From positions 2,134,967 to 2,198,966 of the forward strand of contig NZ_CM001555.1 in assembly GCF_000275865.1 (NCBI RefSeq): 64,000 bases of DNA, written 5' to 3'. Below the pieces are notes generated by a model, which saw only the letters and a program-made list of their open reading frames with translations, was not told where the DNA came from and did no database searches. Below, piece after piece: positions 40,823-50,722 of this stretch. Position 1 is the first letter of the stretch. Every line of letters starts with the position of its first letter. The position numbers and the translations under genes are program-made. This stretch comes from Methanofollis liminatans DSM 4140. Lineage in GTDB: Archaea > Halobacteriota > Methanomicrobia > Methanomicrobiales > Methanofollaceae.

Positions 40823-41245
40823 ATGCCGGAGACCCAGGACCTTGAGATCTACACCGACGGGGCATCCCGCGGCAACCCCGGCCATGCCGCCTATGCCTTC
40901 ATCTTCGTCAGGGACGGGCGGGCGGTTCTCGAACGGTCCGGGTACATCGGGATCGCCACGAACAACACGGCGGAGTACCGGGCGATCATCGCCGCCCTCG
41001 CCGAGGCGGCGAAAGATACAGACGGACCGGTGCGGGTGTACTCGGACAGCGAGCTCGTCATCCGCCAGATCACCGGCGCCTATCGCGTGAACAAGGAGCA
41101 CCTGCGCGACCTGAAGGACGAGGTGCTCCGCCTTGCCGGGCGGTTCTCGTCCGTGACCTTCGCATCGGTCAGAAGGACCGAGCCCTGGATCGGGCGCGCC
41201 GACGAGCTCTGCAACCGGGAACTCGACAGCCGGAGGGGCCGCTGA
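40823..41245 (+). CDS. rnhA: Ribonuclease HI
   Basis: A 140-residue type 1 RNase H that cleaves RNA in RNA-DNA hybrids. The catalytic carboxylates are in place: Asp in IYTDGASRGNPG, Glu in NNTAEYRAII, Asp in VYSDSELVIRQI, and a final Asp in GRADELCNREL. The basic protrusion loop is short, as in archaeal and RnhA-like forms. ATG 40823. Its stop overlaps the next ATG by one base (TGATG). Confidence 0.96.
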   Translation: MPETQDLEIYTDGASRGNPGHAAYAFIFVRDGRAVLERSGYIGIATNNTAEYRAIIAALAEAAKDTDGPVRVYSDSELVIRQITGAYRVNKEHLRDLKDEVLRLAGRFSSVTFASVRRTEPWIGRADELCNRELDSRRGR

Positions 41246-41517
41246 TGGCCGCCGGCGAGGGCGTGCCGGTGATCTCGGCCTCGGAGATCGCCGAATACTC
41301 CTACTGCGCCGCATCCTGGCACTTCGAACGCAACGGCCGGTCCACCACCTCTCCGTCGATCGAGCGCGGGAACCTCAAGCACGCCGAGGTGGGGCGCACC
41401 CTCACCACGGTCGAGCAGGAGCGGCAGATCTTCTGGCTGCTGACGATCCTGGGCTACGGTCTCCTCGCCCTTGCCCTGATCATCCTTCTCTGGGGGTTGA
41501 TGCGATCGACTATTTAG
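41245..41517 (+). CDS. N-terminal part of a split Cas4-like protein with a membrane helix
   Basis: Ninety residues. VISASEIAEYSYCAASWHFE matches the start of Cas4/RecB-type nucleases, including the first iron-sulfur Cys (residue 21). A membrane helix follows (WLLTILGYGLLALALIILLWG), and the frame then ends in TAG after LMRSTI. The next frame carries the rest of the nuclease. A -1 shift at the G5 run TGGGGGTTG (41491-41499) would join them into one protein of about 267 residues. The two may be a frameshifted gene, a slippage product or separate subunits. Confidence 0.7.
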   Translation: MAAGEGVPVISASEIAEYSYCAASWHFERNGRSTTSPSIERGNLKHAEVGRTLTTVEQERQIFWLLTILGYGLLALALIILLWGLMRSTI

Positions 41518-41540
41518 ACGGCGTCCTGGTCCTCCTGCTC

Positions 41541-42047
41541 ATGGCGGCTGTCGTGCTCATCTTTGCGATCCGGCGGCACTACGCCGCGCAGCAGGTGCGG
41601 GACGAGTATGGCATCCCGGAGGGCGAACTGGTCTATGCCGACCTCGGCGAACCCGGCGATGCACTCTTCTCGGAAAACTACCGGATCTCGGGAAAGCCCG
41701 ACTACGTATTGCGGGACGAGATGACCGGGGCCCATATCCCGGTCGAGGTGAAGAGCGGGCGGGCTAAAAAGCCCTACTGGAACCACATCCTCCAGCTCGG
41801 CGCCTACTGCCTCCTGGTCGAGGAGCGCTACGGCACCCGCGTCCCGTACGGGATCCTGGTCTACGGCGACGGGCAGCAGCACCGGATCGAGTTCACCGAC
41901 GTCATCCGCTCGCAGGTGCTCTCAACGGTGGACGAGATGCGCCGGTGCCTCCAGAGCGGGGCGGTCAGGCGCAACCACAATGCACCGGTCAGGTGCGCGA
42001 ACTGCGCCTACCGGGCCGAGTGCCGATTCTCTCTTGAAGGAGACTGA
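41541..42047 (+). CDS. C-terminal Cas4-like PD-(D/E)XK nuclease part
   Basis: 168 residues from ATG 41541. The catalytic core is intact: GKPDYVL (Asp), IPVEVKSGRA (Glu-x-Lys) and QLGAYCLLVEERYG (QxxxY). The C-terminal RCANCAYRAEC gives CX2CX5C, the three remaining cysteines of a Cas4-type 4Fe-4S site. The fourth Cys is on the preceding frame. The first residues (MAAVVLIFAIRRHY) are half of a membrane helix whose other half (AIDYLDGVLVLLL) lies in-frame upstream of the ATG. This supports translation from the preceding gene by frameshift. No CRISPR array or other cas gene is in the window. Confidence 0.8.
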   Translation: MAAVVLIFAIRRHYAAQQVRDEYGIPEGELVYADLGEPGDALFSENYRISGKPDYVLRDEMTGAHIPVEVKSGRAKKPYWNHILQLGAYCLLVEERYGTRVPYGILVYGDGQQHRIEFTDVIRSQVLSTVDEMRRCLQSGAVRRNHNAPVRCANCAYRAECRFSLEGD

Positions 42048-42050
42048 AGC

Positions 42051-42500
42051 ATGATGGAACTTGTGCAGATCGGGGTGATCAGGTCCCCATATAAACGTCA
42101 GGGCGACGCACCCAGGCAGGGACGCCTTGCCGACACCGAGAGCGAGATCGAGGTCTTCCCCGAATACACCGCCGGCCTTGCCGACGTGGAGCGGTGCAGC
42201 CACCTCATCGTCCTCTACTGGCTCGACCGGGCCGACCGGACGATGCTGCACGCCACCCCGCCGGGCCAGACCGTCGCACGCGGTGTCTTTTCGACCCGCT
42301 CGCCGAACCGCCCCAACCCGGTCGGCTTCGGAGTGGTCGACCTCGTCGCCGTCGAAGGAGGGACGCTCCGGGTGCGGGGCCTCGACGCCCTCGACGGCAC
42401 GCCGCTCATCGACATCAAACCCTATTCTTCAGAGGTCGATGCGATCATGGATGTGACGGTCGGCTGGATGAAGAATATGAAGGACAGGCCAGACATCTGA
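42051..42500 (+). CDS. trmO: TrmO-type tRNA t6A37 methyltransferase
   Basis: A 149-residue protein of the TrmO/YaeB (TsaA) family, which N6-methylates threonylcarbamoyl-adenosine 37 in tRNA. The family signatures IGVIRSPYK and GVFSTRSPNRPNPVGFG are complete, together with LDGTPLIDIKPYSSEVD. ATG 42051 or 42054. It follows the Cas4-like gene by 3 bases, at the end of the rnhA-led unit. Confidence 0.9.
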   Translation: MMELVQIGVIRSPYKRQGDAPRQGRLADTESEIEVFPEYTAGLADVERCSHLIVLYWLDRADRTMLHATPPGQTVARGVFSTRSPNRPNPVGFGVVDLVAVEGGTLRVRGLDALDGTPLIDIKPYSSEVDAIMDVTVGWMKNMKDRPDI

Positions 42501-46520: not shown

Positions 46521-47360
46521 CGCGCCGGGGGTTGCACCCCCGGACCCCCGCGTGCGATTGCCCCGAGTGTGCAGGGAGAGGCGAGGTGGAGAATCTATCG
46601 GTAAAAAAAGCGGGATGGGCGTGCCGGAATGGTTTGCCCATCCCCGCACCAATCGCATGTGCGGGGGGGTCGGGGGGCGGCCAGCCCCCCCGGGGGAGGC
46701 TGCTCGGTTTTCCAGAACTCTTACTCTCCAGGTACGAAGACACAATATAACGAATAGCAAAGTCCGCCTCTGCCCGGGGGTTGCACCCCCGGAGCGCCGC
46801 ATGCGATTGCCCCGGACGTGAGGATTCGGGCCGGGTGGAGTGTATCTCGATGAAAAATTATGGATAGGCGTGCTGGCGTGTTTTACCGTTCCCGCCTCTA
46901 TCGTATTTGCGGGGGGACCGGGGGGCAGCAGGCCCCCCGGGAGGAGGCTACTCGATTTTCCTGAACCCTTACTCTACAGATGCGAAGATGTGATGATTTT
47001 TCAGGGTGGAGGGGCCACCGCGCCGGGGGTCCTTACCCCCGGACCCCGCGTGCGATTGCCCCGGATATGAGGGGGTTCGAGCGGCGAATCTGCCGGAAAA
47101 AATCCTGATGGTCAGGCTGGCGTGGTTTGCCCGTCCCTGCCCTTATCGCATTCGCGGGGGGACCGGGGGGCGGCCAGCCCCCCGGGAGAGGCAGAACCAG
47201 ATTTCCCGTACGCTCACGCAACACGCGCCTCTGCCCGGGGGTTGCACCCGATTGGGGCGGATTGCCCATGACATGCAGGGAGGGGGAGGCCCGAGCATCT
47301 TTCGATGGGAAAATGCCGGATGGACATGCCGGCGCCGTTTGCCCGCCATCGCCCCGGAAC
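46521..47360 (+). repeat. Hairpin-repeat array B (three units and a partial fourth)
   Basis: Tandem units at 46521-46771, 46772-47019, 47020-47233 and a decayed copy from 47234. H1 hairpins (CCGGGGGT-loop-ACCCCCGG) lie at 46525-46543, 46774-46792 and 47023-47042. H2 hairpins (GGGGGGC-loop-GCCCCCC) lie at 46672-46690, 46920-46938 and 47165-47183. Loops vary (TGC, CCTT; GGCCA, AGCAG) while stems are kept. A GTGCGATTGCCCCG-like block follows H1 in each unit. 46924-47020 is nearly identical to 15283-15385 on the opposite strand (about four differences). No transposase, RNA gene or conserved reading frame accompanies it; 47361-47546 holds nothing recognised. Confidence 0.92.
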
Positions 47361-47888: not shown

Positions 47889-49085
47889 TCACGTGTGGGC
47901 CGACTCCCCGTGCTGGGAGATGTCGAGGCCCACATATTCTTCGTCCTCGCTGACACGGAGGCCGAGCGTCCGGTCGACAATCCACGCGAGGGCGTAGGTC
48001 ATGCCGAAGGCGTAGACGAGCGCCGCACCGGCGTCGACGACCTGGATGACGAACTGGTCGACGTTGCCGTAGAGGAGACCGTCGACACCGCCGACCGCCG
48101 CCACCGCAAAGATCCCTGTTGCAATCGCTCCCCAGAGCCCGCCCATGCCGTGGACGGCCCAGGCGTCCAGGCTCTCGTCGAGGCCGCGGCTGAGGCGGAA
48201 GAGCATGGCGCCGTAGCAGAGCAGACCGGCAACCCCGCCGATGGCGATCGCCGAGACCGGGTCGACGAAGCCCGCCGCCGGGGTGATGGCGACCAGGCCG
48301 GCGATCGCACCCGAGATCATCCCGAGGGAGCTCGGTTTGCCGCGGTACCAGGAGGCGACAAGCCAGGCGATCGCACCCGCCGCCGCCGAGGTGTTGGTGA
48401 CCACGAAGGCGCTCGCCGCAAGACCGTTTGCCGCAAGGGCGCTGCCGGCGTTGAACCCGAACCAGCCGAACCAGAGCAGGGCGCCGCCGATGAGGGTCAG
48501 GGGGATGTTGTGCGGCTCCATCGTATAGGTGCCGAACCCGACCCGGCGCCCGATCACCAGCGCAAGGGCCAGGGCCCCGAAGCCCGAGGAGATGTGGACG
48601 ACCGTGCCGCCCGCGAAGTCCAGCGCACCGAGGGACGCCGCCCACCCGCCGCCCCACGCCCAGTGGGCGAGGGGATCGTAGACGAGGGTCGTCCAGAGCA
48701 GCCCGAAGACGATGAAGGAGCTGACCTTCACCCGCTCGGCCGCACCCGAGGTGACGATCGCAAGGGTCAGCCCGGCAAAGACGAGCTGGAAGACCATGAA
48801 GAGCAGGTCGGGGATCCCCTCGCCGTCCATGCCGACCCCTGCAAGGCCGAGGTAGTCGAGCCCGCCGATGAACCCGCCGATATCGGTGCCGAAGGCCAGG
48901 GAGTATCCAAAGAGGATCCACTGGAGGGAGACCACCGAGAAGGCGATGAAGGCGAGGGTGATCATGGCGATGATGTTCTTCCGCCGCACAAGGCCGCCGT
49001 AGAAGAGGCCCACGCCCGGCGTCATCAGCATGACCATCGCCGTGCAGATCAGGATGAAGGCGGTATCGCCGGCATCGATCGCCAT
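47889..49085 (-). CDS. amt: Ammonium transporter Amt
   Basis: A 398-residue, 11-helix ammonium channel. The start [33 protein letters not shown] holds the first helix and pore-entrance region. The twin-histidine elements [13 protein letters not shown] and [11 protein letters not shown] line the pore. The C-terminus [20 protein letters not shown] is the cytoplasmic tail used for GlnK control. ATG 49085 is preceded by the stop of a 104-codon gene one base away. Operon order: 104-codon gene, amt, glnK. Confidence 0.95.
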
Positions 49086-49086
49086 C

Positions 49087-49401
49087 TCAGATCACCCCGT
49101 GGCAGACGGCGCCATCGGTCGCCGCGTCCTCGACCATCGAGCCCTGCCAGAACCCCTCAGCCACCGCGGCCAGGGCGCGGCTCTCCGGGGTGCTGCCCTC
49201 AACCGCCTCGAGCCCTGCCGAGATCGCCGCTGCACGGCTCGTTTCCTGCCAGAACCGTTTGGCGACGGCGATTGTGGTGAGGCCGACGTATTCGGCGTCG
49301 TCACCCCGGGGCGCAGGGGAGAGGCTGCCGGGATCTCCGGCAGACTGGCTCCCCGCATACCGGGAGAACACATACCCTTCCGGGTGCATCGTTGTCACCA
49401 T
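49087..49401 (-). CDS. Hypothetical protein leading the amt-glnK operon
   Basis: 104 residues, no membrane segment, with [20 protein letters not shown] and the ending [16 protein letters not shown] do not recognise it. Reality is supported by position: ATG 49401 lies directly after a TATA box (about 49430-49441) and the GGAA-N6-TTCC operator, and the stop is one base from the amt start. If it were not translated, amt would have a leader of over 300 bases. Competing plus-strand frames here lack start signals. Confidence 0.6.
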
Positions 49402-49449: not shown

Positions 49450-50655
49450 TTACATCTGGAGCGACTCCCCGTGCTGGGCGATGTCCAGCCCCACGTACTC
49501 CTCCTCCTCGCTCACCCGCAGCCCCATCACCCGGTCCACCCCCTTCGCAAGGAGATAGGTCATGCCGAAGGCATACGCCATGGCAGCGAGGGCGCAGACG
49601 ACCTGGACGAGGAGTTGCCCGGGGTTTCCGGCCAGGAGGCCAGCAGTTCCGCCGACCGCCGCCACGGCGAAGACGCCCGTGGCCACCGTCCCCCAGAGCC
49701 CGCCGACGCCGTGGACGGCCCAGGCGTCAAGGCTCTCGTCGAGGCTGCGTTTGATGCGCAGGAGCATCGCCCCATAGCAGAGGAGGCCGGCGACGGCCCC
49801 GATGGCAAGCGCCCCCATCGGGTCGACGAAGCTTGCGGCCGGCGTGATGGCGACGAGGCCGCCAATCGCCCCGGAGATCATCCCGAGCGAGCTCGGCCTG
49901 CCCCGGTACCAGGAGGCAAAGAGCCAGGCGAGCGCACCCGCGGCGGCCGCGGCGTTCGTGGTGACCAGGGCATTCGCCGCCGCACCGTTCGCAGAGAGCA
50001 CGCTCCCCGCGTTGAACCCGAACCACCCGAACCAGAGCAGGGCGCCGCCGATGAGAGTCATCGGGATGTTGTGCGGCTCCATCGAGTACATCCCGTAGCC
50101 TGCCCGCTTCCCGATCACCAGGCAGAGGGCGAGGGCCGCAAACCCCGAGCAGATCTCGACGGCCATACCGCCGGCGAGATCGAGCACGCCCATTGTCTGC
50201 GCCCATCCGCCGCCCCAGGCCCAGTGGGCGATCGGGTCGTAGACCAGGGTCGTCCAGAGCAGCCCGAAGACGATGAAGGAGCTGATCTTCACCCGCTCGG
50301 CCGCACCCGAGGTGACGATCGCAAGGGTCACCCCGGCGAAGGTGAGCTGGAACGCCATGAAGAGCAGACCAGGGATCCCCTCGCCATCCATCCCGACACC
50401 GGCGAGGCCGAGGTGGTCGAGGCCGCCGATCACCCCGCCGATATCGGTGCCGAAGACGAGGGTGTAGCCGACGAGCATCCACTGCACCGTGACGAGGGAG
50501 AAGGCGATGAAGGAGAGAGCGATCATCGAGATAATATTCTTACGCCTGACAAGGCCGCCGTAGAAGAGCCCGACGGCCGGGGTCATCAGCATCACCAGGG
50601 CGGTGCTGATGAACACGAATGCCGTGTCGCCCGCATCGATCGCTATGGTCCGCAC
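49450..50655 (-). CDS. amt: Ammonium transporter Amt (second copy)
   Basis: A 401-residue Amt closely related to the one at 47.9 kb ([28 protein letters not shown]-like tail; ending [17 protein letters not shown]). [21 protein letters not shown] replaces the VVHISSG segment of the first copy, so the first pore-His region is Glu-Ile-Cys here; the second, [11 protein letters not shown], is kept. The start is GTG 50655 because the family begins MAID and no ATG is present. No glnK follows it. Confidence 0.93.
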
Positions 50656-50722
50656 CCCCCGTGCGGCAGAGCGATGGCGGGCATGAAGTGTTTACCCATA
50701 TACATCAGTCCAAAAAAGGGAA

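Follow-up and report, generated by a model that had tools for sequence, protein, structure and literature searches.

Within a 64,000-nucleotide stretch of the Methanofollis liminatans DSM 4140 genome (hereafter the window; genome G000, a single contig of 2.475 Mb), a Cas4-like nuclease is spread over two overlapping reading frames, which raises the question of whether the locus is one gene joined by ribosomal frameshifting, a damaged or misread gene, or two genes in their own right. All features of the locus lie on the forward strand. The RNase HI gene (40823-41245; Pfam RNase_H, 7e-14) ends in a TGA that overlaps the ATG of ORF1 by one nucleotide (TGATG). ORF1 (41245-41517) encodes the 90-residue N-terminal half of the nuclease, with a single cysteine, the first of the cluster (YSYC), a RecB-type histidine (KHAEVG) and, at its C-terminus, membrane helix 1, the core of which (LLTILGYGLLALALIILLW, residues 65-83, 41437-41493) was identified by a hydropathy scan. 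The -1 frame relative to ORF1 contains DYLDGVLVLLLMAAVVLIF, the PD-(D/E)XK core and three cysteines of the cluster pattern. ORF2, the C-terminal half in this frame, is given here as 41505-42047, and comprises membrane helix 2 (core LDGVLVLLLMAAVVLIFAI, 41514-41570, by the same scan), the nuclease core (GKPD, EVK, Q..Y) and the three cluster cysteines (C-x2-C-x5-C). A gene for a TrmO-type tRNA methyltransferase (42051-42500; TIGR00104, 5.7e-50) follows directly downstream. The earlier note had described this division, with one cysteine and a C-terminal hydrophobic helix in the first frame and the nuclease core and three cysteines in the next, and our translations agreed with it. It had also held that the second membrane helix is lost if ORF2 begins at the downstream ATG at 41541, as the hydropathy scan confirmed. 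No ATG, GTG or TTG precedes that position in the ORF2 frame of the window genome.

Profile searches assigned the pair to the Cas4 family. Joined ORF1 and ORF2 scored 91.1 bits against TIGR00372 (cut-off 65), ORF2 alone, read from 41541, scored 47.7 bits against PF01930 (cut-off 22.7), and the PADLOC Cas4 models matched all 11 of the 11 members. Residues H49, D155, E169, K171, Q185 and Y189 (alignment numbering) were invariant in the member alignment, and the cluster cysteines C24 and C252/C255/C261 were conserved (one row of the alignment being a truncated contig). In the split members, C24 and the histidine are carried by the ORF1 chain, and the other cysteines together with the catalytic residues by the ORF2 chain. 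The single polypeptide typical of the Cas4 family was found in only five of the members examined, as fused genes, versus 19 split pairs. Nor was the window pair adjacent to cas1 and cas2, being flanked by the genes for RNase HI and TrmO. By eye, a second Cas4 of the same genome, at 1.42 Mb, has Cas1- and Cas2-like neighbours and is of the CRISPR type, and the gene in the window is therefore a solo form. Profiles, hydropathy, the structural model described below and this separate cas4-cas1-cas2-like locus thus upheld the view that a Cas4-type protein with membrane helices sits beside RNase HI and away from CRISPR. Taken together, the sequence data support a Cas4-type enzyme with two membrane helices, presumably active as a nuclease.

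The distribution of the two gene forms was evaluated by searches of the window's own phylum and class, together with one genome-collection scan, through which other phyla were covered; the further genera carrying the pair came from the phylum and class searches. Each of the 12 genomes in the GTDB family carried the gene, as one open frame in four and as two in eight. Across the 19 split pairs, which came from Methanofollis and four other archaeal families, a standard overlapping ORF2 start (ATG, GTG or TTG) was found in 18, the window genome being the sole exception; the stop/start overlaps measured 4 nt (n = 11), 8 nt (n = 6) and 13 nt (n = 1). In seven of the eight split Methanofollis the ORF1 TGA is part of a GTGA or ATGA, and ORF2 begins at the GTG or ATG within it (GTG in the sister genome G011, ATG in the further Methanofollis G009 and GTG in the other five), and each of these starts is preceded by GGTGG or GGGGG. 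The genome-collection scan revealed the same two genes in Ca. Mnemosynella biddleae of the class Archaeoglobi, where the ORF2 ATG overlaps the ORF1 TGA by 4 nt. The six pairs with the 8-nt overlap belong to a genus that we call Methanothrix-type, since one of its genomes, G300, is presumably Methanothrix thermoacetophila PT; their ORF2 lies in the +1 frame. Fused genes were confined to four Methanofollis, which form one clade (support 100/100), and to genome G361, and the fusions of both lineages join the halves at the same point. On the tree, which lacks a resolved root, the gene must have changed between split and fused at least twice.

Several departures from the common gene structure were seen among these orthologues. 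At the point where ORF2 would begin, the four fused Methanofollis genes retain an ATG or GTG in frame, and in three cases GGAGGG lies just ahead of it; they might therefore also yield a short ORF2 product by internal initiation. In four other Methanofollis (G008, G005, G002 and G010) the ORF1 ATG is replaced by CTG, whose overlap with the end of the RNase HI gene reads CTGA, and a standard start follows only about ten codons in, as GTG; this CTG is likely to be a conserved start codon. An Archaeoglobi copy (G375) has several stops in the matching stretch, the nuclease core frame still being open, and is perhaps decaying.

An AlphaFold2 model was obtained for a natural fused protein, that of Methanofollis STE_20 (pLDDT 80.1, pTM 0.75). 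In the hydropathy analysis all tested ORF1 products ended in a membrane helix and all tested ORF2 products began with one, and in the model the corresponding helices (residues 41-90 and 96-130) pack as a hairpin on a Cas4-like core. Structure comparison gave the best matches to the Cas4 of type I-C and to Cas4/Cas1 fusions (8d3l and 7mi4; Z 17-18 over approximately 185 residues), with a Z of 18.1 over 185 residues at 3.1 Å for 7mi4 and of 17.0 for 8d3l. In a second look with VIA-align, unrelated proteins with long helices that resembled only the hairpin were disregarded. The fused orthologue thus adopts the Cas4 fold by prediction. The two-helix hairpin is an insertion in this fold, between the histidine motif and the GxxD strand, and the split between the genes falls at the tip of the hairpin.

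These observations are, in our view, very probably explained by a two-subunit, membrane-anchored solo-Cas4 nuclease made from two genes that overlap and are coupled in translation. In archaea, a short overlap of stop and start codons couples the translation of the two genes through termination-reinitiation (PMC6728339), and subunits of heteromeric complexes are over-represented among the products of such pairs (PMC10666635). In Cas4 proteins one N-terminal and three C-terminal cysteines hold an Fe-S cluster needed for stability, and mutation of any of the four cysteines renders Sso0001 insoluble (PMC3466216). From the combination of these two lines of literature we infer two coupled subunits with a shared cluster. 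After terminating on ORF1, a ribosome would re-initiate on ORF2 beside that stop codon, with the assistance of a G-rich ribosome-binding site, the very run that had been read as slippery. In the membrane the ORF1 and ORF2 products would then pair as one hairpin, contributing helix 1 and helix 2, respectively, with the break between the chains in an extracytoplasmic loop; jointly they would make up a Cas4-like nuclease facing the cytoplasm, whose Fe-S cluster would take one cysteine from ORF1 and three from ORF2. Against the two-gene explanation stand the missing standard start of ORF2 in the window genome, so that the overlap of stop and start codons was found in 18 of the 19 pairs and not in the window's own, the fused relatives, in which one chain also exists in nature, and the patchy occurrence of the pair, which has no shared neighbours outside Methanofollis. 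More tentatively, and with slightly less than even confidence, we suggest that an Fe-S staple built from cysteines of two separately translated membrane proteins keeps the chains joined and gates the enzyme at the membrane, where it would encounter incoming DNA.

The anomaly of the window genome was traced by aligning the junction with those of other Methanofollis. Where G011 has the GTG start of ORF2, G000 has GCG (41502-41504), and the ORF1 TGA of G011 is CGA in G000. A single T-to-C change at 41503 has therefore removed both the ORF2 start and the ORF1 stop, and because TGA became CGA, ORF1 runs on for four codons to a TAG. The best-placed near-cognate codon is the AUC at 41505-41507, which is in frame, lies 8 nt after GGGGG, gives a 13-nt overlap with ORF1 and preserves a full-length helix 2; genome G306 has the same 13-nt overlap with an ATG. 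Near-cognate starts are weak, an ATT start giving approximately 0.3% of ATG (Hecht 2017, as quoted in PMC10666635). The dN/dS values against G011 were 0.106 for ORF1 and 0.105 for ORF2, and the ORF2 changes, when polarised by G009, comprised 15 synonymous and 8 nonsynonymous on the G000 branch and 14 and 4 on the G011 branch. Judged by these substitutions, both ORFs are under purifying selection; ORF2, which is also intact, was thus functional during most of the G000 branch. It may be that ORF2 of the window genome is still weakly translated from the AUC at 41505, a reading to which we give appreciable credence, clearly short of even.

It is less likely, if worth serious consideration, that 41503 is a base miscall or a strain polymorphism, with GTG as the real or prevailing start of an ordinary coupled pair: one T/C difference is all that separates the site from the ORF1 TGA and ORF2 GTG of G011, and ORF2 is intact and constrained. 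However, isolated T-to-C sequencing errors are rare, and the assembly looks accurate, since none of the 61 G011 genes compared across the window had a clearly frameshifted G000 counterpart, and where other starts seemed lost in G000, the G011 start looks over-extended. On the same comparison an error-prone assembly was rejected. Rather unlikely, too, is a real start loss after which ORF2 is no longer made and has become an early pseudogene. GCG is not a known start, and the nonsynonymous count is somewhat higher on the G000 branch than on that of G011 (8 versus 4), but ORF2 has acquired no stop, frameshift or catalytic change and its dN/dS equals that of ORF1. Slippage by -1 or another rescue in the window genome takes the small share of probability that these readings leave.

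Apart from the state of this one genome, the single frames of the four fused Methanofollis could suggest that the gene was originally single and was broken by a frameshift within the genus. We regard this as improbable, because the Archaeoglobi and the other families share the split point and have overlapping starts, and a tree with the split form ancestral, its root being unresolved, needs only two fusions. The five archaeal families with the same split likewise speak against a recent frameshift mutation, which the earlier note had considered. Its suggestion of a run of six G miscalled as five was not supported, given the two genes carried by seven other Methanofollis and four other families; in four Methanofollis the frames are indeed joined by an additional base, but the tree makes these a separate fused clade.

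The G-run itself offers little for a frameshift. The sequence TGGGGGTTG is indeed present at 41491-41499 in the ORF1 frame, but nothing marked the run out as special: the window contains 190 copies of GGGGG where 371 would be expected, and one of TGGGGGTTG against an expectation of 0.54. No stimulatory structure was detected downstream of TGGGGGTTG (z +0.68). The 16S rRNA 3' end, GGCTGGATCACCTCCT, occurs twice in the window genome, and GGGGG (41492-41496) can pair with its CCUCC; among orthologues the G-rich stretch ahead of the ORF2 start keeps its position and not its sequence. The run is thus likely, on this comparison, to be the Shine-Dalgarno site of ORF2 and not a slippery site. A programmed or tolerated -1 shift had been proposed, with the proviso that orthologues encoded as two genes with good second starts would count against it, and precisely such genes, with proper overlapping starts, were found in seven other Methanofollis and four families. 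Hence -1 frameshifting at the G5 run to give one fused protein is very improbable: the P-site GGG can re-pair after a -1 slip at TGG GGG TTG, the product would be full length and ORF2 of the window genome has no standard start, but there is no X-XXY-YYZ heptamer and no stimulator 3' of the run, G5 is found only in G000, G011 and G009 among the split pairs compared (the latter two starting properly), and the six 8-nt Methanothrix-type pairs, with ORF2 in the +1 frame, could not be joined by a -1 slip, which therefore is not the shared mechanism.

The two-gene nuclease can be set beside several known systems. Solo-Cas4 proteins are widespread in archaea, according to the survey of Hudaiberdiev et al. 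2017 (PMC5704561), and as there described share with the pair the Cas4 profile, the RecB-type PD-(D/E)XK motifs, four cysteines and a position not beside cas genes; the window type differs in its two chains and inserted two-helix membrane hairpin. Membrane or split Cas4 forms are absent from the main text of that survey, and no membrane Cas4 was found in the part of the literature that could be searched, so that the membrane-held, split form is considered new only provisionally. Unlike the pair, the structurally closest Cas4 proteins (8d3l, 7mi4) work in concert with Cas1-Cas2 and are not membrane-bound. The iron-staple nucleases AddB, Dna2, Exo5 and Sso0001 similarly place one N-terminal and three C-terminal cysteines around a RecB domain (PMC3466216), but on one chain. 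Archaeal termination-reinitiation pairs have the same 4-nt and 8-nt overlaps, with the Shine-Dalgarno sequence often inside the upstream gene (PMC6728339, PMC10666635), whereas the Cas4-like pair represents pieces of one enzyme domain, fused in two lineages. Cas4 is a core nuclease of CRISPR adaptation, and its many stand-alone relatives lack a known role; the retention of a membrane-held split form in several archaeal families, and its fusion in two lineages, suggest that it has a specific task there, such as the processing of incoming DNA. The split and fused forms together offer a natural setting in which to ask whether two proteins can be bridged by an Fe-S staple. They are also a warning for annotation, in which nucleases that are split and inserted in the membrane can pass for partial or frameshifted genes.

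The neighbourhood of the pair was examined as a clue to function and set aside, since the flanks are kept in Methanofollis and differ elsewhere. RNase HI and TrmO flank the locus in all 12 Methanofollis alignments, and the genomes compared outside that genus showed no shared neighbours. DnaK-DnaJ-like genes lie upstream of the pair in the Methanothrix-type genus, and a helicase gene lies downstream in Mnemosynella (both named by eye). In the Mnemosynella genome G356 an overlapping gene directly after the pair resembles the Hef helicase (by eye), a possible link to DNA repair. Viral carriage was discounted, as a search of 2.9 million viral contigs with the query A3 returned no relatives. Elsewhere in the window, a G-rich segment (46521-47354) contains three to four imperfect direct repeats with approximately 247-nt spacing and has no Rfam match. 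The segments 47889-49106 and 49462-50670 each align to the G011 counterpart of the other with approximately 79% identity, which suggests tandem paralogues.
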